A stretch of 64,000 nucleotides of DNA from Bryoerythrophyllum caledonicum (Eukaryota; Streptophyta; Bryopsida; Pottiales; Pottiaceae), in assembly GCA_963971425.1 (NCBI GenBank), contig OZ020520.1:27683535-27747534 (forward strand). The letters are read 5' to 3'. Below are positions 1 through 29,226 of this stretch, one piece after another (within the stretch, counting starts at the first letter, position 1; each line of letters begins with the position of its first letter). Below the pieces are notes generated by a model, which saw only the letters and a list, made by a program, of their open reading frames with translations, did not search any database and was not told the DNA's origin. Both the position numbers and the translations under genes were made by a program.

Positions 1-263
1 TGCGCACTAAACCCACAGGCGGCCACTTCTAGGTTAACACACATCAATCGTATTTCTCGCTGGTCTTTGCGTCGAAGGTCCATCGAGCTGTGCGAGGGTA
101 TTATGATCCTTGTTGTCTGCGTAGATTTCTCCGAGGTCAGGGTCAGATTGCGAGTTAGACTGATATTACAATGCAGAGAAGACAATCTACAAATCCGATT
201 CTAAACAGTTGTGCGTGTCTGTGTGCAGGGCAAGACAAGTGCGAGGAAAGGGACATTGAGGAC
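1..263 (+). other. 5' part of the methylase-like gene (upstream intron and leader)
   Basis: A clear acceptor (pyrimidine tract then CAG ending at 228) opens an exon at 229. From 229 to the first in-frame ATG at 264 the frame is open and acidic, so either the start codon is at 264 or coding continues from an exon left of the window. No convincing upstream coding exon is visible in 1-228. Confidence in the acceptor is good; confidence in the true gene start is low. Confidence 0.4.
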
Positions 264-3200
264 ATGGCGATATCGATGAGCAACGCTACAACAGATTGCA
301 GCGCGGAAGGTAAGTCCAATACACATTGGTGAATATGAAAAGTACGTCTAGGTTAGGGTTTTTCAATCTCGAAAAATCTAAGCTGTAGGATCGTGATGGT
401 GGTGTCACGGGCGTCCATGCCGCGCTGCCGTTGGCGGCAGTGCTACCCAAGATAGCCGGTGTCTGTGATGACACCGACCTCATCACCGCATATCTAAGTA
501 CTGGCCTTCTTCGAAGCAATGCCGGCAACGGCAGTGCTCGTGAAGTGGATTGCTTTTTTTTAGAAATTGCTCTGTACGATGCATTGCCGGCAACGGCAAT
601 GCAGTCGGAGTTGTTGGTCTTTTTTTAAACTTTGCTTTTTCGATGCACTGCCGCTGCCGGCAGTGCCATGGAAGTGCCCGTTGTCACAAATCTCATCGAC
701 CACTACATGAGCACTGCCGGCTGCGGCAGTGCTCGTGATCTGATCTGCGATAATTTATCACTTGAACTGTTTAAAGCACTGCCGTTGCCGGCAGTGCTCA
801 AGGAGTGGTCGGTATATTTTTTCATCTTTCTTTCTACGAAGCACTGCCGTTGCCGGCCGTGTCCATGAAGTTCCCGGTGTCACAATTTTAACCGAGCACT
901 TTATGAGCAGTGCCGGCAATGGCAATGCTCTTGAAATGATTTTCTATTTTAAAAACTTGGTCTGTTGAATGCACAGCCGTTGCCGGCAAAGCTCATGAAG
1001 TGCCCTGTGTCACAAATTTCACCGAGCAGTTCATGAGCTTTGCCGGCAATGGCTGTGCTGACGGGATGATTTGCTGACAGAAAGAACTTGTTTTGTTTCA
1101 TGGAATGCGGTTGCCGGCAGTACTTGTTCAGGGGTCATTTTATTTTAATCTATCCTCCTTTGAAGCACTGCCGTTGCCTGCAGGGCTCATAAAGTGCCCG
1201 GTGTCACAAATTACACCGAGCAGTTCATGAGCTATGCCGGCAACGGTAGTGCTCAAGAAATGATTTGTTGTCTTTTTAAACTTGCTCTGTTTCAAGCATG
1301 CCGTTGCCGGCAGTACTATTACGGGGGTCATTTTATTTCAATCTTTCCTCCTTCGAAGCACTGCCGTTGCCGGCAGTGCTCATGAAGTGCCGGGTTTCAC
1401 AAATCACACCGAGCACATCAAGAGCACTGCCGGCAACGGCAGTGCTAACCAAATGATTTGATAATTTTTAAAACTTGCTTTGTTTCATGCATTGCCGTTG
1501 CCGGCAGTACTTGTACAGGGGTCATTATATTTTAATCTTTCCTCATTCGAAGCGCCGGCAACGGCAGAGCTCAAGAAATAATTTGTTTTTTTTTATACTT
1601 GCTCTAATGAGAGCAATGGCGTTGCCGGCAGTGCTCTTGGAGTGGTCAATATTCTCTTTACTTTCCTCTTTCGCAGCACTGCCTTCGCCGGCTCTGTGCA
1701 TGAAGTGACTGGTGTCAGAAATCTCACCTAGCACTACAATAGCACTGCCGGCAGCGGCAATGCTTGTGATCTGATTTGCTATTTATGATTACCTGCTTTG
1801 TTCAAAGCACTGCCGTTGCCGGCAGTGCTCGTGATATGGTTGACATTTTTTTAGATCAGGCTTCATTGGAGCACTGCCGGCAACGGCAGTGCTCGTGATA
1901 TGGTTGACATTTTTTAGATCAGACTTCATTGGAGCACTGCCGGCAACGGCAGTGCTCGTGAAGTGGTCAGTTCATTTTTTTTTCTTTCCATCACCGAAGC
2001 CCTGCCGTTGACGGCAGTGCCAATGAAGTTCTTGGTGCTGCAATTCTAATCGAGCACAATCTTGGGCATTGCCGTCAACGGCATTGCTCCAGGATTGGTT
2101 TTTCTCTAATTATTTATGTCGCTGCCGTCATCACTCTGAAGCCGGTCACTCTGTTGAGAAATGCCTCGCAGTTCCACTGCCGGCAACGGCACTGCTGTCT
2201 ACATGAGGTCGATGTCTGTCCTTTATTTGTTATGTCAATATTCGTTGAAATTCATTGTTGTTAATTGAGTTTGCAGACGCAGATATGGAGAACTGTGAAC
2301 GCAACAGTGGTCATCATGAAGACGCATCAGATGAAGAGGATCGGTTGACTCAACCGGATGGTATGTTTCATCATTATAATTATTCTATTTTCATGGTTTG
2401 TGAGTTGCTTGTTTTGAGTGTGTGACCTTCACTGCAGATATTGATCAGCAAGAAGATGAGGACGAAGCCGATAAGACGTCCCCAGAATCTATGGCTGACC
2501 TTGGCAAGCAGATGAATGACCTCGTTGTCAGGGAATCGGTCAATACCAATGCTCTCCTTGACAAGCTTCGCTTTCAGCCGCGGTCGAAATCTCGGCTCCA
2601 AATCCCCCTCTGTAGGATGATTGCCCTTCCGATTGTCAGGCCATTTCTTAGAAACGATGTCATGTCGTTGGCCTCGCACTTTGTGAAGAATGGGTACATG
2701 GAGGGAGCTGGAGTATTCTACGTTGCGCTTCAGAATGATGTAGGAAATACTGTTGATGTCACTGAGGAGATTACTTCTACCTGGAACAGTGGTTGGGCTG
2801 AGGCGAATGCTGCATTTGAGAACGTCCTTCAGGCTGATGAAGACCTTCGCTTTCTTTCCGGAAGAATGTTTCATGTTTGGGATGGCAACCACCGGTTGCA
2901 GGCATGGCGACCAATTATCGACCGAGATCATTCCGATGACCCACTATGGCATGTAGCAGTTGAGTCAGTACTACTCGACGTTCAAGGAAATGTAGCGACC
3001 CTACTGACTGCACTTCATCAGGTCAATTGGTAAGCCTATTTTAAATAAACAGCTTTTCAAGCATATATTTTTTGTAGTGTTTCCTGTATTGACATCATAT
3101 TTTATGTCCACAGGAGGAATCAGAAATCGCATGTGACTACAAACCTTGTCCATAAACTTTATCGTGTTCAGGGTATCGGTTCTCAACCTTTAAAGTTTTT

Positions 3201-6200
3201 CGAGAACCTTGTATCCCAGAAGGAACTTGAAGCAGCTGATAGTAAACAGAAGTCTGCGAAACGTACCTGGTATACTCTCTCTGAGCCATCGTTGTGCTCC
3301 ATTCTTTACCAGGTACAGCCTTTTCTCATATGATCATGATCCAGATTTTGGTTATGTGCACTGCATACTCCTTAATGATCTAGTACCACCGAGTTTTGTT
3401 TAGAATAATTCTTATCAATGCACTTGCGCTGTGGTTGCAGCAAGAGATTGGAGATGCTGCAGCACAGGCTCAAGTAAAGGTTTCGGAGCGTTTTCCAAAT
3501 CCTGCTGATTGGACCTCATCGAATGCCCTTGATTTCGTTTCCAAGGCTGTTAAGAGAACAAAACTGCATTGCAGTTCTGAGCTGCGGAAGCAGCTTCCCA
3601 CGGCGGATCCGAAGCACACTCCCCGCTTTCTGGAAGAGGTGAAGAAACATTACGAGTCTCACGACGAGGATTCGGAGATGACCCAGGAGAAGCTCCACAT
3701 GATTGCAACGTCAGCTATGGAGGCTGAAATGAAGGTTAAGTGGCTCGAGCGCTGGAATCGGGATGGCCCCCTCCGCGAGGCACTGCGATTTCCGAAGATT
3801 CGTTTTCCAGACAGTGAATTTCCAGACTGGCTTCACCGTGCTACATGGTGGGCGCAGGTATTGGAACTGGAGTATTTACTTGTTGCGAGAAGATTGTTTA
3901 TTTCTTCATGAGATACTGATACGGTGAATGATTATATCTTTGCAGCTATCTTCTGAAGGAAGTCAACTGTTTGGCGATGCGATATCGGATTTGTCGGTGG
4001 AAGTTAACTACGAGCCTTTGAACGGTCCAGCAATTCCTAGGATTGATGATTATATTGAAGAGAATCGAATTCAACTTTGGGACACTGCATTCTACAGGGA
4101 GTTCAAGGAGCCCAAGGGAGTTCACAAGAATTATGCACCTAAACGGCAATTCGGTTTGGCTGAAGCTGTTCGCCGTATGGTCTATAGGTACATTAAGAAT
4201 GTTCTAATTCCTTGCAGGGCGATGGCTCGTCCTCCTCCTATTCTTGCTGGTTATTTGGACAAGGACAATCAAAACTGCATGATGTCGAAGGGGATCAAGG
4301 CTATGTGGGGGCAAGCGCACTGGGAGCGATGCGGGTGGTATCTGGACTGCCCAATCAAGAGACCTCCCTCTTTTGATCTTGATTTGCGTAATTCAATTGA
4401 GCCTGAGTTGAAGGGTATTGAGAGTGGAGGTAGCCGACCCCCAACGCCTGCTGTAATGACGAGAGTGAGGAGGAAGGCGAGCAAGGGGAAGCAGGCCGTT
4501 GAATCTCCCTTCGACGATGCTGACGTAATTGAGGTCCAAGCGCCTGCACCGATGGTACTCGTTGAGGAGGAGTCTCCTTCAAGCTCGTCACCAGTTCACG
4601 ATCCAGCTCCGGATGTCACGATGCAGCCTTCTCTCCATTCCGAGCCCTCTGCCCCTTTGCTGAAGAGAAAGGCTATTCCAGATTCGATTTCACCGACATC
4701 TGCCACAGTTCCGGTTGGAATCCGGATTGAGAATCTCTCAATCCACGATGTCATGAATGGCGGAAAGAATCACCCCGCCTTTGCTCGCTTGAACCAATTC
4801 ATGCAAAAGGTATTTACTTTGCTTCGTCTTGGTAGTATATTTGTTTTCACTCGATTTTTTCTGCACTCCTTAGAGCCCACTGCCGTCACCGGCATTGCTG
4901 TACCAAGCAGTATATTGAGAGCGTCTTTCAAATCTTGAGTCAAAATCTATAAGTACTTCCTTGCTGTTTTACCAACTGTATCCGCTAAATCTGTTTACAT
5001 TGTTCTAACTTCCTTTCACTGCGTGTATAGGTTGTGAGTGGGTCCGCAAACGAGGCGCGAAGCACCACGTGCGCTCATCGTGGCTTTAACTTAATGTTTG
5101 CTGACTTTCCAGACGGGCTCTACGTGCCTTCAATCTCTCGTGATACAAATGACATTCCTCCTTGGAATGTCTATAGTGAGAAGTCGGTTGAATCTTTCTT
5201 TGAATTCTGCGACGCCTTTCTTCATGACACTGGATCCGTGCTTGTGGTTTCTCCTGAGAACATCAGTGTACGCTCTGATGTTCGATCATATGCTGCATGC
5301 TACGACTTCAAACTTCTTCGAGAGTGGTGGGGTGTGAATGAGATGCCGCTGGCCTCGCCTATCAGTTCTTCCATGAAGGTTTGTCTTTATCTTCCAGTTC
5401 GTGTCATTTGCGCAGTCCCTTCATTCTTTCATCCAGTATGTTAATTTTATCTTCCACGTTGTATTTGTTTTTGTTTTCTCAGACCCGGCGTTTCAGAGTT
5501 TTTCTCTTCGTGCGGGTCTCGAATCCAGCGGACACGTTTCAATTCAATTCGAATCTCGAGCTTCCTCCAACGGATTGGAGCCTTGAAGAGACGGACGTAA
5601 TAGTTAATCATACTGACAAGGATTCACAATCCATGAGAGGGTCTATTCCTTGGCGTGGAGGGCGAGAAAGAAGTGTGCTCTTCTTCTTGATTCTTTTTCA
5701 AGGATTAACCAAGCCGGAAGATGTCATCGTTGATGCCTTTGCTTCCACTGGTATGGTGTTGCTTTTAATACTTTGAAGTTCAATTTTAGTTTCCTCTTTT
5801 GCTCTGACCATCTGTTTTATTCCAGGAAATTCTATTCGCGCTTGTCGTTCCATCGGACGGCATCTGGTGGCCTTTGAAGCAGATAAAGCCATCTTTGACG
5901 CGTTGTTGAGGCCCTTGTTCACACCTAAGACTCCACGACCGACCGCTGGTCCCAGTGCCAATGTTCAGCACTCTCTAGATGACGAAGCTCCCATCCGAAA
6001 GGTCGCAAAGAGGAATAGACTAAGTAAGTAAGTCATTTCGGTGTTATTCTTCATTGATTTGAACATCTTCTTCATTCTCTGATGTGCCTTTGCTTCTATG
6101 TTTGCAGCTTGATTGCAGTGGCCACCTCTCCAAATAGAAGTTTTCTACTGCCATCTTATGCGGAGGATGCGGCTGTACTTCTTGCTACTGTTTTGTCTCT

Positions 6201-6324
6201 CTCAACCGCTTCTAGTTCCTCCTCTTCCGATATCCGTGCTGAAGGTTTCCTAGACTTAGAGGCAGTCGAGGAACGCGTAGTATTATTGTCTTCTCCGGAT
6301 AGTTCATGCAGTTCTTATGCATAG
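264..6324 (+). CDS. ParB-like / beta-class DNA-methylase-like fusion protein (10 exons)
   Basis: Exons: 264-309, 2277-2360, 2438-3029, 3114-3312, 3441-3857, 3946-4809, 5031-5378, 5483-5750, 5826-6027, 6108-6324. All junctions are GT-AG and phase-consistent, giving about 1,078 aa. The acidic N-terminus is followed by a ParB-like stretch with WDGNHRLQAW at residues 191-200, which resembles the D-G-x-H/G-R-L motif of ParB/Srx-like folds. A basic and proline/serine-rich linker lies around residues 610-720. The C-terminal third has the permuted order of beta-class N4/N6 amino-methyltransferases: a motif IV-like ADFPDG (758-763) where DPPY is usual, then a motif I-like DAFASTGN (934-941) where DPFxGxGT is usual, then an acidic residue in FEAD. 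Bacterial and phage proteins combine ParB and methylase domains in this order. The degenerate catalytic motif argues for altered or lost activity. The intact splicing argues for a real host gene rather than a recent bacterial insert. Function is unproven. Confidence 0.72.
421..2200. repeat. Regular array of ~27 short palindromes inside intron 1
   Basis: About 27 copies of a 22-24 bp palindrome with arms GCACTGCCG and CGGCAGTGC around a 4-base centre, mostly GCAA or its complement TTGC. Approximate starts: 424, 520, 580, 645, 711, 777, 841, 908, 971, 1036, 1106, 1164, 1231, 1297, 1357, 1423, 1489, 1552, 1612, 1677, 1743, 1807, 1869, 1934, 2000, 2067, 2176. Spacing is 58-70 bp, usually 64-67. 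The AT-rich spacers (~41 bp) are related to each other at higher order, for example AAGTGCCCGGTGTCACAAAT recurs, so this is a satellite-type array. It lies wholly in the intron between 309 and 2277 and would be transcribed as serial hairpins; GCAA copies give GNRA-type tetraloops. Confidence 0.9.
4874..4902. repeat. Isolated degenerate copy of the intron-1 palindrome
   Basis: A single copy with the arms CCACTGCCG and CGGCATTGC lies in the intron between exons 4809 and 5031 of the same gene. It has the same arm sequences as the intron-1 array but is alone. Confidence 0.6.
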
Positions 6325-7120
6325 GACCGTGCAATTTTGAGACTCATGCATGGTGTATCGTCTCTACTGTACCTTTCTCCTTCCTTTTTAAATGCGGCAG
6401 TTGTTTTTTCTTTTACATCCATTCTCCATCTTAATTAATTTTTCACTACAATTATCACAATTACTGAACTACAATTAAGCTCATGTGCTAGGCAATTAGA
6501 TATAGTAGTGTCTTTTACATACCCGTTTATACCCTGATTGCAGTTGATACCCGTTGATACCCTGAAAGTCTTTCACTACTATCCTCGGCCATGGGTCTTC
6601 AGTTTTCAGTAGAAAAACTGTATTTTCTCACGGATATAGGTCTACTTCGTAAAAAAATTCACTTTTTTTTTTACTTTTTGAATTTCTTATTCCGTATTTA
6701 CTTTTTTTTTACCGCTCACAGCTCACAGCTCACCGCTCACCGCTCACCGCTCACCGCACGCAAGATAGCAATCCCCCCTTTTTCTATTAGGAGAACAATA
6801 AATTTATGAAAGAAGTAAAGTCTTTAATATCTATACGTTTCTTAGTAAGACAATGAGGGTTGCGAGTATCTTTTCATCACTACTATCTGCCAAAAAATAG
6901 TGGACTATTCAACTCTAAGGTAGTAATTTGGATATTGGCGACCATGCAATTTTTATCATAGAAGTCACCGTTTATAAATAGAGTTTACAAATTCTTAATG
7001 TATTTTTTTGTCAATAGTCTCTTTAGTATTTGGAAACACGTCATTTGTGACATTTTCATGTGCCTTGTGACGTTTTTACAAATACCATGTTTGTGCACAA
7101 GCTATTTTTGACATTATGCA
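6325..7120. other. Intergenic, AT-rich, with a short CCGCTCA microsatellite
   Basis: This is 3' flank of the methylase-like gene. A run of about six CCGCTCA/CAGCTCA heptamers lies at roughly 6711-6758, followed by AT-rich DNA. I see no gene here and no obvious poly(A) signal. Confidence 0.5.
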
Positions 7121-7129
7121 CATATTCAT

Positions 7130-7700
7130 AAAGCATCTACAAGAGTATGAAGTATGTGCAAATATGAAGTGTGTGCACAAGTTTCAATACATTTTTATAA
7201 TATGTAATTTATTTGATAATATACGTGATATGCTTAAGTTTTCAATAACATATTGTAATATGCACAACTTTAAGACAATATGTCAATACACTGTATAAAA
7301 ACCCAACTTTTGGACACTTTTTTTAACACTTCCTTGAAAATGCACAACGTTTTGACAATATCTCGTATTATTTACAAGTTTTCGACATTTTTTCAACACT
7401 TGTTTGCAATATGCCCAATTTTTGGACAATATGTTGAAATATGCAGAAGTATACGACAATGTTTTCGAACTTGCTTGTAATATGCACAAGTTTTAAAAAG
7501 TTGTTGTGTTATGCACAAGTTTTTGACAGTGTTTTTGACACTTGCTTGTAAGATGCCCAAGCTTTAAAAATATGTTGTAACATGCACAAGTTTTCAATAC
7601 TTTTTTCGACACATGCTTGTAACATGCACAAGTTTTTCGACACTTGCTTGTACTATGCACAAGTTTTCGACACTTTTTTTGACAATTCACAATAACTGTC
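7130..7700. repeat. Degenerate tandem repeat of ~50-60 bp units
   Basis: Units repeatedly carry TATGCACAAG, TTTTCGACA and ACACTTGCTTGTAA in the same order, about ten times, with indels. Short open frames across it come from the repeat and are not genes. Confidence 0.7.
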
Positions 7701-8869: not shown

Positions 8870-9760
8870 AAAAATTGTTGGGTTAGTTGCGCAATTTTTT
8901 CTAGTTTGTGTGGTACAATTTTCAAGTTGATGCAATGAGTATTGAGTGAGTTACTGACATTTTTGTGGACGGGGGTTCTGCCGAAAACATTCTGGGTCAG
9001 TTTTGAACAGTCCAATTTCGGCGTGCTGTAACTTCTTGATGGAAGGTCGTTTTTCACTGTTTGTTTTTCGGAAAGATGCGCATTTTTGTCTAGTTTCTTT
9101 ATTACAATTTTTAAGTTGATGCAATGAGTATTGAGTGAGTTACTGCCATTTTAGTGGAAGGGGGTTCTGCCGAAAACATTCTGGGTCAGTTTTGAACAGT
9201 CCAATTTCGGCGTGCTGTAATTTCTTGATGGAAGGTCGTTTTCCAATGTTTGTTTTTCGGAAAGATGCGCATTTTTGTCTAGTTTCTTTGGTACAATTTT
9301 CAAGTTGATACGATTAGTATTGATTGAGTTACTGACATTTTCGTGGAATGGGGTTCTGCCGAAAAAATTCTGGGTTAGTTTTGAACAGTCCAATTTCGGC
9401 GTGCTGTAACTTCTTAATGGAAGGTCGTTTTCCAATATTTGTTTTTTTTGAAAGATGCGCCTTCTTTTCTAGTTTCTTTGGTACAATTTTCAAGTTGATA
9501 CGATGAGTATTGATTGAGTTACTGACATTTTAGTGGAAGAGGGTTCTACCGAAAACATTCTGGGTCAATGGGTTAGTTTTGAACAGTGAAATTTTGGCGT
9601 GCTGTAATTTCTTGATGGAAGGTCGTTTTTCAATTTCTATTTTTTTCAAATATGCGCATGTTAGTCTAGTTTGTGTGAAAAAAATTTCAAGTTAGTTCGA
9701 TGATTATTGAGTGAGTTACTTGCATTTTAGTTGACGGGGGTTGTGCATATTTGAAAAATT
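8870..9760. repeat. ~190-bp tandem repeat inside Harbinger-like copy 1
   Basis: Five units, each with TCTAGTTT, CAAGTTGATGCAATGAG, GGGTTCTGCCGAAAACATTC and ATGGAAGGTCGTTTT in order. Period is about 175-197 bp. About four units of the same family lie inverted in copy 2 (27690-28330). Confidence 0.85.
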
Positions 9761-14926: not shown

Positions 14927-15616
14927 TCACCGTTCGCCTAATTCTTCCAGGGTTCGCATTCCGGCTGCCCTGATGAGTTTTCGATGTTGATGTGCGGGAA
15001 GTGCCTTCGTGAGTACGTCGGCTATGTTCTCCACTGAAGCAATCTTCTTTACTTGGATCTGGTTTGTATTCGTTAAGTCCTGTGTGTATCCGAAGATGTG
15101 AGGACTGATATGTTTTATTCTATCAGCTTTGATGAAGCCCGAGGTGACTTGTTCCACACACGCGGCGTTGTCCTCGAAAATTGTTGTCGGCTTGTCCGAG
15201 TTGGCGATCCCACATTGTTGAGAAATAGCCTGTTGCATCGTCCTCAGCCACACAGCCTCCCTGGACGCTTCGTGGAACGCAAGTAATTCAGCATGGTTGG
15301 TGGAGGTGGCTGTCACGGTCTGCTTGGTGGATCTCCACGAGATTGGTGCGCCATTATTCACGAAGATGTATCCCGTTTGGGATTTGCCTGTAACCGGGTC
15401 GGTCTTGAAGCCAGAGTTGGCGTAGCCAATAATATCTCTGCCGGCGCTCTTCTTAAAATGTAGACCAAGGTCTTCAGTGCCGTGTAAGTAGTGTAGGAGA
15501 TGTTTGATCCCTTGCCAGTGGCGCATTGTAGGTCGCTGGCTGTGCCTTGCTAGTACGCTAACTGCAAATGAAATGTCGGGTCGCGTGTTTGTCGCGAGAT
15601 AGAGTAGCGCTCCCAC
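14927..15616 (-). pseudogene. copia RNase H / end of reverse transcriptase
   Basis: Begins with GALLYLATNTRPDISFAV, the conserved block after the RT, and continues through a typical copia RNase H (FEDNAACV; KHISPHIFG). A single in-frame stop just upstream (about 15629) separates it from the RT piece. It is the last coding segment before the purine tract and LTR. Confidence 0.85.
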
Positions 15617-15628
15617 CGCAGCTAAGTA

Positions 15629-16270
15629 CTATGTTTTATCGACCTCCTCCTTGCCGTCATCAGCGAGTCTGTAGAGGTCATCTTCGGTCTTGCTTCGACC
15701 AATCATGGGTGCGGACAATGCATTCGCGTTTTTCATGTTGAATGTGGCCAGGAGCTTCTTAACATAGGTCTGTTGATGAAGTAGTATACTCCCATCAGGA
15801 TAGTGTTGTACCTGTAATCCAAGGCAATACGACGTGCGGCCTAATACTTTCATTTCAAAAGTTTTGGTTAGTATGCTCTCCACATGAGCGCATAAGGCTG
15901 CGGTGCCAATGGAATTTAAGTCATCGACATATACTGCCAAAATGACAAATCCTGATTCGTCCCTCAAGACAAATACACAGGGTAGTGCTGGATGATTAGA
16001 AAATCCATGTGCAAGCAGGAAACTTTTCAGGTGGTGGTACCATGCCCTACCCGCTTGCTTTAGGCCATATAGTGCTTTTTGGATTCTCAATCCGGTGAAC
16101 TTGCCGGGCTTTACGGGACTTGCAGTAGGCAAGAAATCAGGTGGCGGTTTTATATAAATTTCCGCGTCTAGATCTCCGTAGAGATAGGCTGTTACTACAT
16201 CGAGTAAGCGTGTTTCAAGCGTCATTTCGACCGCGAGGCTCAGTATGTATCTGAAAGAGGTACTGTCCAT
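15629..16270 (-). pseudogene. copia reverse transcriptase core
   Basis: Carries the copia RT blocks LLDVVTAYLYGDLDAEIY, KALYGLKQAGRAWY and the catalytic AVYVDDL. The upstream end is broken near 16300, where the frame shifts from the integrase ORF, and the downstream end is a stop near 15629. Confidence 0.88.
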
Positions 16271-16309
16271 AACTGGGGAATAAGTCTGCTCGAAATCAAT
16301 GCCTGGTTT

Positions 16310-17758
16310 CTAAGTATAACCCTGGGCTACGAGCCGGACCTTGAACCGGACCACATGTCCATGCTCATCACGTTTGCACGTGAATATAAGCCTATGTCCT
16401 ATCGGTTTGGTGTCCAGGTTTGTGATTAGTGGTCCGAAGACGCCACGTTTTCGTAGGGATTGGTATTCTGCTTGTAGGGCAGTTTCCCACTGCGGCCAAT
16501 CGGCTCTACATTTAGCCTGATCTAGGGTCATAGGGTCAGAGTCGAGGTTAGTCAGTCTCGAGACGAATATTTCTGGATCCTCCCATGGGACTCCAGTGGA
16601 CTCTATCACTATCGACGTGAGACGTCGGTCCATGTGCATGGTAGCTACATGTGCATGCGAGGTGCTAGGGGCTGGGCTAGAGTGCCGAGTTTTCCTCTTT
16701 TTTGTTGGGGCTACAGGTACTGTGTTTCCCGAACCTGGTAATGGGTTTCTGATTATACGTGGACCTGACTGAAATCCGTCTGGGATTTTCTCAGCTAGAT
16801 TCTTTAGGTTAATTATTTTTCGGACCTCTGCGTCTGCTAGCGCGGTCCGAGGATCAGGATTCAAGGTCAGGGTTTCTAAGGCTCTGAAATTTAAGTCAGG
16901 GTCTCGACTTTGGTGTAATGAACCAGGGAATTTATTTTCCACGAACTTACAATTCAGGAATCTGGCTTTGTATTTAGCATCGCTAGTTGATAATTTGTAC
17001 CGTATTATACTAGGTGTGTCATATCCTAGGTAGATGGCCTTGTGCCTGTGAGGTGCGATGGTTTTTAATTTTGGTTCGGGTAGAGGTATCCAGACCTCAC
17101 ATCCGAAAGTGCGTAGGTGCGCTATGTGTGGTGTGCGTCCTGACATTAGTTCTAGTGGGGTTTGGGTGAGCAATAAGGTTGATCTAAGTCTCAAAAGTAG
17201 AGACGCGTGTAAGACCGCATGTCCCCACATCGAGGGGGATAAACATGCATGAAGTAATAAGGGTCGAACTACGAGCTGCAGTTTCTTGATATATGCCTCA
17301 GCGAGACCATTCTGTGAGTGCTCATAGGGTACCGAGTATGTTAGGTCTATCCCTGAGGCTGTACAAAAGTCCTCGAAGGCTTGGGATTTGAACTCTATGG
17401 CGTTATCCATTCTCAGGAAACATACTTGGTTGTGAGGGAAGTGGTTCCTGAATCGCAGGATCATAGCTAAGGTTTTTGAAAATACCATGTTCCTAGTCGT
17501 TAGCAACGAAACCTCACCGTGTCTACCCGAGGCATCGACTAAAACAAGGAAGTACTTGAACTGACCTGATTGCGGTGTGATTGGGCCGCAGATGTCGCCT
17601 TGGAGGCGATACAAAGTAGTTGGCATCTCCGCCGGTAACTTCCACCGCGACGGTTGCCTTATGAGCTTGCCTTGAATGCAGGCTTCACACGCGTCCACGC
17701 GCTCCGCGTCGCTCGCGCAGAGGCCATGGCCGGTCAACATGGGAATCATCTTCCTCAT
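16310..17758 (-). pseudogene. copia integrase and start of reverse transcriptase
   Basis: About 482 codons. CEACIQGKL is the GAG-pre-integrase/zinc area. The integrase core has GDICGPI, FLRMDNAIEF and HSQNGLAEA, which supply the D, D and E positions. It ends in the start of the RT fingers. A gap of ~240 bp with no open frame separates it from the gag-protease ORF, so the polyprotein is interrupted. Confidence 0.88.
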
Positions 17759-18001
17759 GATGGTTGTCCCAGGGTGTCCAAGCCGGCGATGTCACACATC
17801 CGCTTTGCTACTTGCAACATGAAACGTTGCTTTTTCGCTTCCCTGGGACAGGCTAGGGGTACTAGCTCTTAGCCGTGAGGCCCTCGAGTGTTCGCCAGCC
17901 TCTTCTTTACTCAAATGAGCAAGGCTTGCTTCCATATCAGAGATGGTAAGCTCGTATAGGCCGTTGGCTCCCGCGTGTGCGGTGGCGAGGATCCTCGGCC
18001 C

Positions 18002-19348
18002 TCACCTGAGCACCAGCGCCTCTTCATCGTTCGCACTCGCAGTGGAAACGTGGATACGGTTCGCTCTCAAGTCTCGGTAGCTGATCAGGCTACGAGGAGC
18101 GTCCGGGGCGTACATAGCCCGTTCACAAATCAAAGGGTGTCCCCCGGGCAATGCTATTGTTGCCCGGCCCTCACGAAATCTGAAATTTCGTGGCCCTGCA
18201 ATGGTGACGATGTCACAACATTGCCATGGGTCGTTTTGATTTTTGAACTCAAAGAACCTAGAGTCCTGCAGTATGGTATGAGTTGATGCACTATCGAGCA
18301 AAGCTATTTTTGCTTTGGCCGTCTGTGATACTCTTTGAACCATGTATATCTCAGGATCTAGTTCGTAGAGCGTGAGGGATGGTGCATCAAGAGTATGCGT
18401 TTCTCTTTTCCCATCCTTCACTGCCTGGAGTTCCTTAAACATCTCAGTGAAATAGTGTGGAGCACGACATTCTTTGGCATAGTGTCCCTTTGAGCCACAC
18501 TTATGACAAGCTCCTTTAACACTTTTACTGGACGACTGGGACGACTTGTCTATTTTTGGTTTGTGTCCATACCTCTTGTGCGTTGAACGTTCACCTTTCG
18601 GTTTGTTCCATTCTCCTTTCTGTTTGCGCTTAGGTGCATCTGTGACGTGTGACTCGTGGCTGGGGTTCGGCTCCTTTTTCGTGGATGAAGTCCCCGCGCT
18701 TGGAGTTTTCGACGTCTTGTCAATCTCGCTCGCGTGAACCTCCTTGGCTGGGCGAGATTCTGCATTCTTGAGCAGTAGCTGTTGTTGCTTCTCGGCTAAC
18801 AGCAAGTATGACATTAGTTCTGAATGTTTTGTGAATTTCATGTTACGATACTGCTGAGCTAAAATCGCACAAGCAAGAGGAAAGGTGGACAACGTCTTAT
18901 CTATAAGATCGGTGTCGGTGAGCCTGTCTCCACAGAGTCGGAGTTGCGCCGCTATTCTGTGAAGCTCTGCGTTGAAGAGGAGGAAATTCGGAAAGTCCAG
19001 TACGCGGAGGTTTATCCAATCATTCCGTGCCTGGGGCAGAAATATAGTCTCCTCGTGCTTGAATCGCGCCTCCAGCGCCTTCCATAGCTCCGCAGGTTTA
19101 TCGACTTGTATGTACTGCAGTCTTAACGACGTATCAAGGTGTCGTCTAATGATGAGCAGCGTCTGCCATATGAATGGTGGTGGTAGGTCCACCGCAGTTG
19201 TCTCGTCCAGAGCTGCGATCAGTTCTTTTGCACACAAGTAGGTGCGGACGTCAATACTCCATTCGAGATAATTAGATCCATCGGGTTCCAGAGGATCGAA
19301 ATAGAGTGGTTGTGTTCGGTTCTCCCGGACTCCCGGTAGTGTAGCCAT
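18002..19348 (-). CDS. copia gag and protease
   Basis: Starts at ATG 19348 (MATLPG). Contains a gag domain (YLEWSIDVRTYL; ELWKALEARF), a CCHC zinc knuckle (CHKCGSKGHYAKEC, spacing 2-4-4) and an aspartic protease active site (LLDSASTH). About 449 aa are open. The frame ends near 18002 before integrase resumes in another frame. Confidence 0.88.
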   Translation of the reverse strand: MATLPGVRENRTQPLYFDPLEPDGSNYLEWSIDVRTYLCAKELIAALDETTAVDLPPPFIWQTLLIIRRHLDTSLRLQYIQVDKPAELWKALEARFKHEETIFLPQARNDWINLRVLDFPNFLLFNAELHRIAAQLRLCGDRLTDTDLIDKTLSTFPLACAILAQQYRNMKFTKHSELMSYLLLAEKQQQLLLKNAESRPAKEVHASEIDKTSKTPSAGTSSTKKEPNPSHESHVTDAPKRKQKGEWNKPKGERSTHKRYGHKPKIDKSSQSSSKSVKGACHKCGSKGHYAKECRAPHYFTEMFKELQAVKDGKRETHTLDAPSLTLYELDPEIYMVQRVSQTAKAKIALLDSASTHTILQDSRFFEFKNQNDPWQCCDIVTIAGPRNFRFREGRATIALPGGHPLICERAMYAPDAPRSLISYRDLRANRIHVSTASANDEEALVLR

Positions 19349-24933: not shown

Positions 24934-25027
24934 AAACCTTTCTCGGCCTTTTGGCTAAGATCGAGTGCAGTATCTGTTCTTATCAGTTTAATATCTGATC
25001 GAGGGGCATCGTCTCTCATGATATTAA
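24934..25027 (+). ncRNA. U2: U2 snRNA 5' region, 3' part missing or replaced
   Basis: Near-identical to U2 over stem-loop I, the branch-site recognition region (GTATCTGTTCTTATCAG) and stem IIa, with a rearranged but still pairing IIb hairpin (GAGGGG/CTCTC) and then GATATTAA. U2 should continue with the Sm site (ATTTTTG). Instead CCCTTAAAGGACGG follows at 25028, which looks like the end of a TTAA element. This is therefore either a U2 gene broken by insertion at its own TTAA or a truncated U2-derived copy. The USE-like box upstream favours a former real gene. Confidence 0.72.
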
Positions 25028-28000
25028 CCCTTAAAGGACGGAGCTATGACCGTGGCATCAATCCCGGTTTTCATTCTAATATGTGCTCTAATTCTTCATC
25101 AAATATAAGCCGAAATATTTTTATTTCATTTTTCACAGATGACACCACATGTTTTGTTCATGTCACAAAAAACACAAGATTTTTTAGAGAAAATTCAAAT
25201 TATTGTGATTTTCTAAAGAAAATTTGAAAAATATTCATATCATATACAAATTTTACGTAAAAAATATGATAATTTCACCAAAGATGTACATTATTGTGCT
25301 GAAGCTTGTGGTGTAGATGGAACTTCCGTGTTCAGCTAAAATTAGAAAAATGGCCCTCCATGGTAATAGGCCCAGAGTTCAAATTGCAATAATTTACTCA
25401 ATTTTATGTATTTTTCAAATTTTCAAATTGGATCGGAAACTAGATTTGATAAAATTTATTTCGTTATTTCATTATTTCATTTATTTCAAAAAATATCATT
25501 TTAATGACTAAAATTCAGATTTAAAGCTAAAGCTAGAAGTTTCTAAAATACACTACGTCAAGTTCCATGTCACAAACATTTTCTTGTTTAGAGAAAAAGT
25601 TACACACTCTGTAAAGGGTATTTACAGTACATGTGGTACATGCACTCATTGACAACACCTTCACAAAAACTTGGATGAAAGTAATGTTTTATCATCACGT
25701 AGGAACATTTTACATTCTTCCGTCAACCAGATTTTGGTCGCCCCAACGTTTAAGGGATAATCTAATTTTTTCGCGGATGCGGGACCACTTGGCAACTTGC
25801 TGCCCAGCCCCGCTAGCGTCGCCTCGGTCTTGCACTGCCTCTTAAATCGCGCCCGCTGAAACTCCTCCACCCATGAGGAGCCCAATCTAAAATCTTAAGA
25901 TCAGTGGCGTGGAGTTCTTTGAACATGACTTGGGATTAGTAAGGCACTGTGATGGATTGCCTATACGGATGTGTTTACAGGTGATGCACACAGGGTGAGC
26001 AACAATCTAAGGGGGGTTTTACACTATGGTGGAGAACTCCATTGGCCGGTCAAGAATTCTCAGCCAAGACATGGTTATTTGAGGCGAGCGGTGGATGTTG
26101 GACAAGACAAAAAAAGAATAAAGTAATGTATGAAGAAGTCTTGACCAGTTAGTAGTGTAGACACCTAACGGTGAAATCCACCGGCCAACTTCATAAGATG
26201 AAGACCACCGGTGAACTTCACCACCAAGAAAGTTTATGCTAGCCAATGGAAACCACAATTTCTAATGGTCCCCATGGACATATTATGTACATTATGGGCT
26301 CCGTTGAACTACAAAAAATTATATCTTTTGCATTAAATGTCCAAATGTTGTAACAGTTGTTGGGAAAAAAGCCCCTACTTGTCTAGTTTGTGTGATAAAA
26401 ATTTCACATAAATACAATATATATGTTGTTAGCACACACAATCATGTTATAATTGATTTGTTTCAAACCTTTTAATTATTTGTTTGCCTTTTCTTCAATC
26501 ACCACATAAGGCTTGTTGATGCTGACATTAGACTAAGTAACAACACATCTATGACATTAGACTAAGTAACAACACATCTATGTGCTTACTGTGGGTTCTA
26601 CTTTGTAATTTTTATACTACAAAAAAATTGATTTGGTTGTTCAAAATTTATTTACCAAAAGTACATCAAGAAAATAGAAGGCACTTTTGTTCATATGTAA
26701 ATATATCAGAGATATCTGTTTCTTATAGTCATATAGATTCCATATGGGTCATAATCGCATTCCATATCAATATTGACATAAAATCAATATTGTTTCAATC
26801 CTTCTTGAGATCATATTGTAAAAAGACAATATGAAGTTGGTATAAAATATTTTCAATACAATAATTATTAAAATGAAATATGAAAAATAACATATAATTT
26901 GAAAAAAAAATTAGTATGAAACTTTAGGACATTGTTTTATATGTGGACAATAATTGACCCAATTGATAGAAATGAAATGATTTTTGCACATTAGACGAAT
27001 GTGTAAACAAAATCTCAAAAGATGTCAATATAAAAATAAAAATAAAAATAATATATACCTTGACATCAATTGATGTCCAAATATAAGGTCAAACTTAAAA
27101 GCAAGTATTCTAAGTATAACATGTACCATCAATGTAAGTTGTTTTTTTATTTCCTTCCCGCTTTTGCCAATGTCAACTTGTCTTTTCTTTTTGATTTCTT
27201 CAATGCGCCAACTCTTTGTAGATGAAAAATCATTTTCCAAATTGGCTTTTGATTTCTTTGAACAAAGGATGGATAATACCCATCTACTTAATGTTATAAG
27301 GTCCCCCATGCATTTTTGGCCACAATCACCTTTCAAAATTTATACATTTCACATCAAGTGTAAAAATGTAGTAAAACTTGTTGGAAAAAATGGTCCTACT
27401 TGTCTAATTTTTGTGGTAAAAAGTTCACATGAATTCAACATACAATGTAATTTTGAGAGCCATTTATTACACCGGGTTAACTCTACTTCTTGTATAAAAA
27501 ACATAATCTAGCATAGAGTTTTTGGGCTACTTTCAACTTTGAAAATCTAAGAAAGAGTAACAAGTAGTTAACTCCTACTTGGAACACAAGCCCCACAATC
27601 ATATCATTTACAATTAAAGAACAGTTGAAAATCAATAGCAATAAAAATTTGCAAATATGCAGAACCCCTTTCCACTAAAATGCACATTACTCACTCAATA
27701 CTTATGGAACTGACTTGAAATCTGTACCACATAAACTAGACAAAAATGCGCATCTTTAATGAAAACAAGCGTTGGAAAATAATCTTCCACCAAGAAGTTA
27801 CAGCACGCCAAAGTTGCAATGTTCAAAACTGACCCTGAATTTTTTGGCAGAACCCCCTTCCACTAAAATGCACGTAACACACTCAATACTTATGGAACTA
27901 ACTTGAAATTTATATCACACAAACTAGAAACAAATGCGCATCTTTAAAAAAAAACAAGTGTTGGAAAAGGATCTTCCACCAAGAAGTTACAACACGCCGA

Positions 28001-29226
28001 AGTAGCAGCGTTCAAAACTGACCCTGTAATTTTTGGCAGATCCCCCTTCCACTAAAATGCACGTAACTCAGTAAATGCTTATCTAACTAACTTGAAATTT
28101 GTACCACATAAATAAGACCAAAATGCGCATCTCTGAAAAAAACAAGTGTTGGATAAAGATCTTCCACCAAGAAGTTACAGCACGCCAAAGTTGAGTATTC
28201 AAAACTGACCCTGAATTTTTTTGCAGAAACCCCTTCCACTAAAATGGACGCAACTCACTCAATACTAATTTAACTGACTTGAAATTTGTATAAAATAAAC
28301 TATACAAAAATGCGCAACATACCCAATAATTTTTTTTAAAAATAGACACTCATGGAAGAAGAAGTATGAACTTGAATTGCAGCAAAATACAACAAATTTG
28401 GAGGGGGAAAGAATATTTTAAGTAAGTTCTTCTCCAGTGGTTTGGATTCTTGTCCGGGGGGTTGAGGTCGGACAAGAAACTCATCCAGAGGAGAGGACCT
28501 CTTCAAAAAGGTGTTGCCACATAGGCATCCATGTCATTTTTTCATCCATGCTTGAAGTTCTTCACCGGTCAAGTCGTGGCTATAGTGTAAATCCAATCCG
28601 GTGAAGAACAAATTGTTCTCCAATCATATTGCTCCATTTCCCTTGAATTCTTGGCCGGTGGAGTTCTCCATCATAGTGTAAAGCGGGCCTAAGTTAGCTG
28701 GCATGTTCTGATATAGTGCTTTGTCAATTGAAATAATTTAACAAGCAGTGATGCACATAACAACATGGAGACAGGGGGTACAATATTTGATATTTTATAA
28801 AAATATATCTACCACATAGGGTCTTTCTCAGGTTTTTAGGGCATCATTGACAAGGTCAGCACAGCCCATTTGCTTGATCAAATCCGTCTAATAGTACCTC
28901 TACAAAATTCACTAGTATTGTTGATAGTTTCCAGGAGCAGTTATTGTGCAAATTAACCCTTCTACGACGAGGCCATGCACAGGGCCTTGAAATTTCTAAC
29001 GGTTTAATAAATTCTGCACAACAACATCTATAGTATGAGTACATTTCACTGTTCACTTTTTTGAGAGAAATCATTGTAGTTCATTATTGCCTCAACCGAT
29101 TGGAGATCAGAAAGATGGGTTAGGTGAAAGAAAGCATAGTGCAAATCAATCCAATGGTTCAATCAAACGTGATTCCTCAAAAACTGGTCTCATTGGCCAC
29201 ATTCTTGTTCCTTCGTCGTTAAAGGG
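25028..29226. mobile_element. Possible TTAA element starting in U2, split by Harbinger-like copy 2
   Basis: The left end is TTAA + CCCTTAAAGGACGGAG (25024 on). A candidate right end is CTTCGTCGTTAAAGGG + TTAA (29227-29230). After removal of Harbinger-like copy 2 this would be ~1.5 kb. The pairing of the ends is my inference from partial complementarity. The body (25.1-26.0 and 28.7-29.2 kb) has no supported gene. Confidence 0.35.
26011..28689 (-). mobile_element. Harbinger-like element, copy 2 (2.7 kb, inverted)
   Basis: TIRs match copy 1 (TTTTACACTATGGTGGAG; TAGTGTAAAGCGGGCC) with TAA on both sides (26008-26010, 28690-28692). It is colinear with copy 1 in reverse, including ~187-bp tandem repeats at 27690-28330. 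It lacks copy 1's 9864-10229 ORF through a deletion near 27.57 kb. Many point differences show that it is old. Confidence 0.85.

Follow-up and report, generated by a model that had tools for sequence, protein, structure and literature searches.

A palindrome array in a Mutator-like transposon of Bryoerythrophyllum caledonicum as candidate binding sites for a protein of the element itself

Why would a plant intron carry 27 closely spaced palindromes? The question is raised by a stretch of 64,000 nucleotides from the moss Bryoerythrophyllum caledonicum (contig OZ020520.1, positions 27,683,535 to 27,747,534; hereafter the window), in which an initial annotation had pointed to an intronic array with a period of about 65 bp. 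As discussed below, the array locus is a 12.4-kb Mutator-like DNA transposon that was recently active and has two genes; it is not a feature of a host gene. The array lies in an intron of one of these genes, here called R, and a domain of the predicted R protein has a ParB/sulfiredoxin-like fold. We give an even chance to the reading that the array provides cis sites on which a dimeric protein, most probably the R of the element itself, loads, and that the element marks itself in this way, most likely against silencing.

A search with a 24-mer of 10-bp arms around a GCAA or TTGC centre (AGCACTGCCG-GCAA-CGGCAGTGCT, up to 8 mismatches, either strand) recovered 27 palindromes between positions 421 and 2196, and 24 of the 26 steps from one palindrome to the next measure 60-67 bp, which bears out the count and period given initially. 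The other two steps, at the edges, are 94 and 108 bp long, and the 108-bp gap holds one degenerate copy. By the same criterion, five mononucleotide shuffles of a 20-kb stretch gave 0, 1, 0, 0, and 0 palindromes. Tandem Repeats Finder reports the 65-bp period together with a higher-order period of about 193-196 bp, equal to three units, and some spacers contain long inverted sequence (e.g., 971-1058, with 39-nt arms that are 90% complementary). Within the window, the core TGCCG-N4-CGGCA is confined to the array (17 sites) and a later intron (one site). A check for a cytosine-deamination signature found no CpG depletion in the array (observed/expected 0.87, compared with 0.79 in the rest of the element and 0.67 in the window). 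The palindromes are located as follows (the prefix L009 marks coordinates in the stretch left of the window):

421-2196, no strand assigned: palindrome array of 27 sites, core TGCCG-N4-CGGCA, ~65-bp period, with an asymmetric centre (GCAA/TTGC) in both orientations.
4876-4899, plus strand: lone extra palindrome in R intron 7, from the palindrome search.
L009:6628-6651: lone extra palindrome in the transposase intron, from the palindrome search.

What kind of locus carries these sites became clear from a comparison with the sequence that adjoins the window on its left, with both sides of nine other loci, and with one side of a tenth. Similarity to the window locus begins and ends sharply. The left end of the element lies at L009:4391 (G000:C8:27677925), 5.6 kb before the window begins. 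In aligned blocks, the window copy shares 98.5-99.7% identity with seven other full-length copies. The eight full-length young copies are 12,325-12,582 bp long and differ outside the array by only 0.18-0.38%; their transposition is therefore recent. Three more copies, located on C1, C7, and C12, show 89-96% identity in long aligned blocks. Perfect 10-bp target-site duplications (TSDs) flank all eight young copies, with a different sequence at each locus. In these copies the element ends read GGACGAAGCTATCTTGCGTGCGGTG on the left and GGGGATTGCTATCTTGCGTGCGGTG on the other strand, with one base changed in one copy. The terminal inverted repeats (TIRs) are 25 bp long; their first 7 bases are partly mismatched, after which GCTATCTTGCGTGCGGTG is identical.

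1-6776, no strand assigned: right-hand 6.8 kb of the 12,386-bp Mutator-like DNA transposon; the seven other full-length copies match up to this boundary.
6752-6776, minus strand: right TIR GGGGATTGCTATCTTGCGTGCGGTG, exact ends, with GTGAGCGGTGAGC-like subterminal repeats inward.
6777-6786, plus strand: right copy of the 10-bp TSD CCTTTTTCTA; the left copy is at L009:4381-4390.

Mutator-like elements (MULEs) have TSDs of 8-11 bp and TIRs of 14-500 bp, according to the relevant passages of PMC6446971. The 10-bp duplications fall within the first range, and the 25-bp ends, although short for a MULE, within the second. The matching full-length copies and the TSDs lead us to reject an intron of a host gene; the initial annotation was right in calling the array intronic but overlooked the transposon nature of the entire locus. 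A CRISPR-like array is rejected as well, given related spacers and a transposon as the locus. Within the element, the array is 4.6-6 kb away from the ends and its sequence is unlike the TIR repeats, which speaks against an array for end binding by the transposase. Each copy contains 18-21 exact cores, all of them intronic by the predicted gene model, and the 114,009 bases that flank the eight young copies contain no core.

The two genes diverge and flank the element centre. The minus strand to the left of the array carries a predicted two-exon gene for the transposase (1,184 amino acids), whose frame is open in three of the eight copies. With residues 260-800 as the query, 59 relatives were found (E 2.9e-279 to 1.1e-81), and none were confirmed in IMG/VR. 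Among the relatives, a C-x2-H motif (C528, H531) is nearly invariant. The structure model of one of them, P0058, is confident in parts only (mean pLDDT only 56.5); Foldseek matches it best to the ISCth4 transposase (E 5.6e-4, probability 1.00, TM 0.12 on the query), which we take to be an IS256 enzyme. A Pfam scan of the transposase gave no match to a MULE model, and the SWIM zinc finger PF04434, which is common but not universal in MULEs, scored below the cut-off (E=0.2). Taken together, the structural match, the C-x2-H motif, and the 10-bp TSD make this a predicted Mutator-type transposase, despite the missing Pfam MULE match.

The second gene, R, was modeled from open frame and GT-AG sites only. 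By this model the array is in intron 2, and not in the first intron as initially annotated.

L009:9523-9739: R exon 1 (gene model).
229-309, plus strand: R exon 2 (gene model), exon end conserved in diverged copies.
310-2276, plus strand: R intron 2, which holds the array; GT-AG, with an open frame across the join.
2277-2360, plus strand: R exon 3 (gene model).
2438-3029, plus strand: R exon 4, with a ParB/sulfiredoxin-fold domain and the motif DGNHRLQAW.
3114-4809, plus strand: R exons 5-7 (3114-3312, 3441-3857, and 3946-4809; gene model).
5031-6324, plus strand: R exons 8-11 (5031-5378, 5483-5750, 5826-~6020, and 6108-6324), with an N4/N6 DNA-methylase-like C-terminus; the last junction is uncertain.

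The end of exon 2 and its GGTAAGT donor are conserved in the four diverged copies aligned, and the join of exons 4 and 5 agrees, by eye, with the uninterrupted relative P0147. The predicted R protein appears to combine a ParB/sulfiredoxin-fold domain with a weakly DNA-methylase-like C-terminus. Exon 4 is ParB/sulfiredoxin-like by fold, with weak individual scores and a consistent family. The C-terminus matches PF01555 over 41 residues (E=0.001; 19.6 bits, below the curated cut-off of 26.7) and DpnA (E=0.017), and the catalytic motif of this part looks non-canonical. No bacterial or archaeal relatives of exon 4 were confirmed. A search with the spliced R protein scored 8000 candidates, none with E<=0.001, perhaps because relatives have been predicted exon by exon; a search with a single exon found 91 relatives.

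Is the array then a property of R, or a satellite that happens to lie there? In the window's own assembly (437 Mb), the palindrome as a 22-mer with up to 3 mismatches has at least 510 matches, and its reversed control has none. The exact matches listed form 24 clusters, several of which share internal offsets across different chromosomes. R loci were taken from a protein search of the same genome with exon 4, whose family is very large there: the best 150 of 1,773 first-look candidates were scored. Every one of the 20 best R loci (83-100% identical to exon 4) has 10-20 palindromes in the fetched flank, and, among the matches listed, 20 of the 24 exact clusters are at R loci. An ordinary local satellite at unrelated sites, as the initial annotation had considered, is hence rejected for these 20. 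The other four (C1:43747759, C1:50695710, C7:93353, and C15:6972696) have no R match nearby among the best 150. The first of them (L008:1500-1864) holds four palindromes resembling GGCACTGCCG-N4-CGGCAGTGCC, which share one orientation and follow each other at 102-126 bp steps; the nearest listed R match is >700 kb away. This locus reads as a stray or degraded array.

The site is stable among the closer R loci and changes among the distant ones. Across 12 analysed loci, with exon 4 divergence of up to 17%, the majority 22-mer is the same in 11 and one base off in the twelfth. The four most diverged of them show a symmetrical A..T to G..C change of the outermost arm base, and a fifth locus has a one-sided change. 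Two more distant R loci were read, L049 (63% identical) and L050 (68% identical). The first has two perfect palindromes, GGGGGTGCCG-CTGT/ACAG-CGGCACCCCC, 128 bp apart, both with exact cores; the second has seven sites, four of them exact, at steps of 64, 97, 95, 64, 64, and 97 bp. In both loci the sites are upstream of exon 4 and, by inspection only, between stretches resembling the exons that flank R intron 2. Under a first-order Markov model, 0.002 and 0.0025 exact cores would be expected in the 1.5 kb of L049 and L050, respectively, where two and four are found. With two mismatches allowed and 50 shuffles, L050 stands clear (seven sites vs a maximum of three), while L049 does not rise above the shuffles (two vs a maximum of two). 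Outer arms (GGGG..CCCC) or centres differ in these loci, and the core TGCCG-N4-CGGCA is common to all three R lineages. The candidate own sites would be GCACTGCCGGCAACGGCAGTGC for the R of this element and GGGGTGCCGACAGCGGCACCCC for the R of the L049 lineage. L049 has seven listed copies with equal score, and groups of this kind, nearly identical among themselves and about 63% identical to R, suggest other recently active families.

What has been kept within the palindrome was assessed in four element copies, which together gave 79 distinct units. The arms have an information content of 1.44 bits and the 20-base flanks 0.46 and 0.42 bits, which agrees with the constraint or homogenisation proposed initially. 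The value for the centre, 1.39 bits, depends on turning the units to the consensus (0.71 unturned; random centres turned alike give 0.14, with a maximum of 0.25). The centre differs more than arms or spacers because both orientations are used, and 51 of 81 centres read GCAA. Arm positions 1 and 5 are lax to about the same degree on either side. The changed arm pairs number 150, with 130 one-sided and 20 two-sided, and eight of the changes are complementary, compared with 6.1±2.2 expected from shuffles (P=0.25). Since the changes are not compensatory, the pattern is that of a dyad DNA site and not of a hairpin; this test is our reason for rejecting selection on an RNA hairpin or on pairing between neighbours. 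Intronic GNRA-like tetraloop hairpins that serve as small-RNA precursors or splicing modulators would fit the perfect arms around GCAA in one orientation, the symmetrical A..T to G..C change of the outermost pair in four of 12 loci, and the fully palindromic GGGGG..CCCCC arms of L049. Such a role is nevertheless most improbable in our judgment, as compensation is without excess, both centre orientations are used so that about half of the copies would have TTGC loops, and in L050 the core is palindromic while the outer arms are not. An Rfam scan of the window found no match in the array.

The initial claim that arms stay while spacers drift holds over long times only. In older pairs the arms plateau near 0.15 and the spacers reach 0.5. 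At short range (spacer divergence <=15%, 76 pairs) the arm/spacer change ratio is 1.08-1.25, which is against simple purifying selection, and the young copies have 14 variable columns among 609 in palindromes vs 14 among 1,089 in spacers, with five of the 14 palindrome columns clustered close to a deletion junction of a single copy. Arms thus do mutate, and with time selection or conversion brings the consensus back. The array also changes by whole units: its length among the young copies differs by exactly 196 bp (three units, absent in three of eight), by 63 bp in one copy, and by a 15-bp and a 1-bp gap. Copies with the extra 196 bp have about three more sites.

These length differences, the higher-order period, and the equal pace of arms and spacers at short range are what a neutral minisatellite would produce, that is, a palindrome-prone 65-bp unit that slippage and unequal exchange multiply, that travels with the transposon, and that gene conversion keeps uniform. 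We consider it improbable. R loci of only 63-68% identity have the same 10-base core, with its N4 spacing, ahead of exon 4 and otherwise different arms, and the majority site persists through the divergence of R described above. Moreover, each of the eight young copies has single, non-tandem sites in two further introns; the one in the transposase intron has its 14-base core unchanged in the four diverged copies aligned, though the site in R intron 7 is half lost in one diverged copy (C1).

Collectively, these data favor the protein-binding role that had been listed initially as one candidate, and the conservation of a dyad with non-compensatory changes is consistent with it. The array is probably the target of an element-encoded protein because it is dyad-symmetric, dense, and limited to non-coding parts of a single type of element, and because its outer bases vary by lineage while the core is kept. 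R is the natural candidate for the binder, as R lineages track the array and as its fold type fits: proteins with a ParB-type fold load on clustered palindromes. In the model that we propose, the 27 dyad-symmetric sites at the middle of the element, within R intron 2 and between two divergent genes, would be loaded at high density by a dimeric DNA-binding protein, most likely R. The loaded protein would mark the element as self, and the most likely outcome would be that the promoter and intron region is kept free of host silencing. Arrays would grow, shrink, and homogenise through whole-unit exchange, and between R lineages the outer arms and the centre change while the core is kept.

The same placement between two divergent genes, the single sites in introns of both, and the dimer-type site could also be expected of an autoregulatory or enhancer array, on which a host transcription factor or the transposase sets the two divergent promoters (intron-mediated enhancement), with R and silencing uninvolved. 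This seems unlikely to us, since the site follows R lineages and its outer bases change, which an element-encoded partner fits better than a conserved host factor. As for R as a methylase, its catalytic motif looks altered, so that binding alone is the safer claim. In several unicellular eukaryotes N6-methyladenine goes with transcriptional activation (PMC12695648); if R still methylates adenine, an activation-linked mark would suit an anti-silencing function. A bolder version is doubtful at present: the array would be the place where a eukaryotic ParB-type transposon protein recognizes its own element, R would load on parS-like palindromes spaced in quanta of ~32 bp (roughly three turns of the helix) and shield the element from silencing by coating or modifying it, and R and palindrome would co-diversify across the very large R family.

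Other features surround the element. Directly left of it (L009:3200-4300) is a long low-complexity repeat in which long open frames have runs of one or two residues, and just to its right (7304-7684) is a 71/141-bp AT-rich tandem repeat with CAAGTTTTCGACACTT units. Two arrays at 8888-9746 and 27659-28316, by eye of the same ~189-bp unit, are in opposite orientation and 18 kb apart; at a guess, a second element might have its ends there. The minus strand at 14927-19348 holds open reading frames of the Ty1/copia type (CCHC zinc knuckle, integrase, RVT_2). The only Rfam match in the window, at 24935-25033 on the plus strand, is U2 snRNA-like (84 bits, 99 bases vs a 192-position model), perhaps a fragment or retrocopy.

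How does this arrangement compare with known systems? The closest functional parallel is the VANC system of the Arabidopsis VANDAL elements, described in PMC5735166 and PMC10398659. VANC21 binds YAGTATTAY arrays in introns of VANC21 and VANB21 and upstream of VANA21 (PMC5735166); its localisation is affected by motif density, and tandem duplication shapes the evolution of the arrays (PMC5735166; PMC10398659). In both cases a Mutator-superfamily element combines a transposase with extra genes, carries a dense array of short motifs with tandem-repeat dynamics in introns or upstream non-coding DNA, and has a target sequence that differs between related elements. The two also differ. VANC recognizes a 9-bp motif in one orientation, while the palindrome here is 14-24 bp, in both orientations, with a ~64-bp period. 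For VANC, binding and demethylation have been demonstrated. The accessory protein here is ParB/sulfiredoxin-methylase-like, and a Pfam scan of R exons 1-10, in pieces, found no VANC-family domain (DUF1985/DUF287). The array would therefore work like VANC targets, yet outside the VANC system, because its accessory protein belongs to another family.

For R itself, the nearest counterparts are algal. Ectocarpus Sola1-1_Ec32 carries an opposite-strand gene for a ParB-like and N4C/N6A methyltransferase protein, and its authors propose that such products bind and modify their own transposon (PMC12477816). As in the predicted R, whose methylase likeness is weak, an accessory protein of ~1,100 amino acids has both kinds of domain, the ParB-like one included, and is encoded opposite the transposase; the transposase is of the Sola type there and Mutator-like here. 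The relevant passages of PMC12477816 name no cognate DNA array for these proteins. Our literature search, over titles and the openings of abstracts, found no report of a palindrome array beside a ParB-methylase gene, a weak negative. Accessory genes of the R type are thus already known from algal transposons, and what looks new is a candidate array of cognate sites.

With the bacterial ParB-parS and Noc-NBS systems, which are marked by a helix-turn-helix, CTP binding, and spreading, R shares a likeness of fold; the array is in a eukaryotic transposon, and its site sequence is, we presume, unlike parS. CACTA/En-Spm elements have many short direct and inverted subterminal repeats that an element-encoded protein, TnpA, binds, and these are near the termini and serve end synapsis, whereas here the array is far inside and the ends carry other repeats. 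The array offers a concrete candidate target for ParB-methylase accessory proteins, the same core being found beside three diverged R genes in one genome. If R binds it, VANC-like anti-silencing would have evolved at least twice, from unrelated proteins and once from a bacterial DNA-partition fold, and the R lineages would supply pairs of proteins and matching sites, of use in work on the evolution of such specificity and perhaps in directing chromatin marks.
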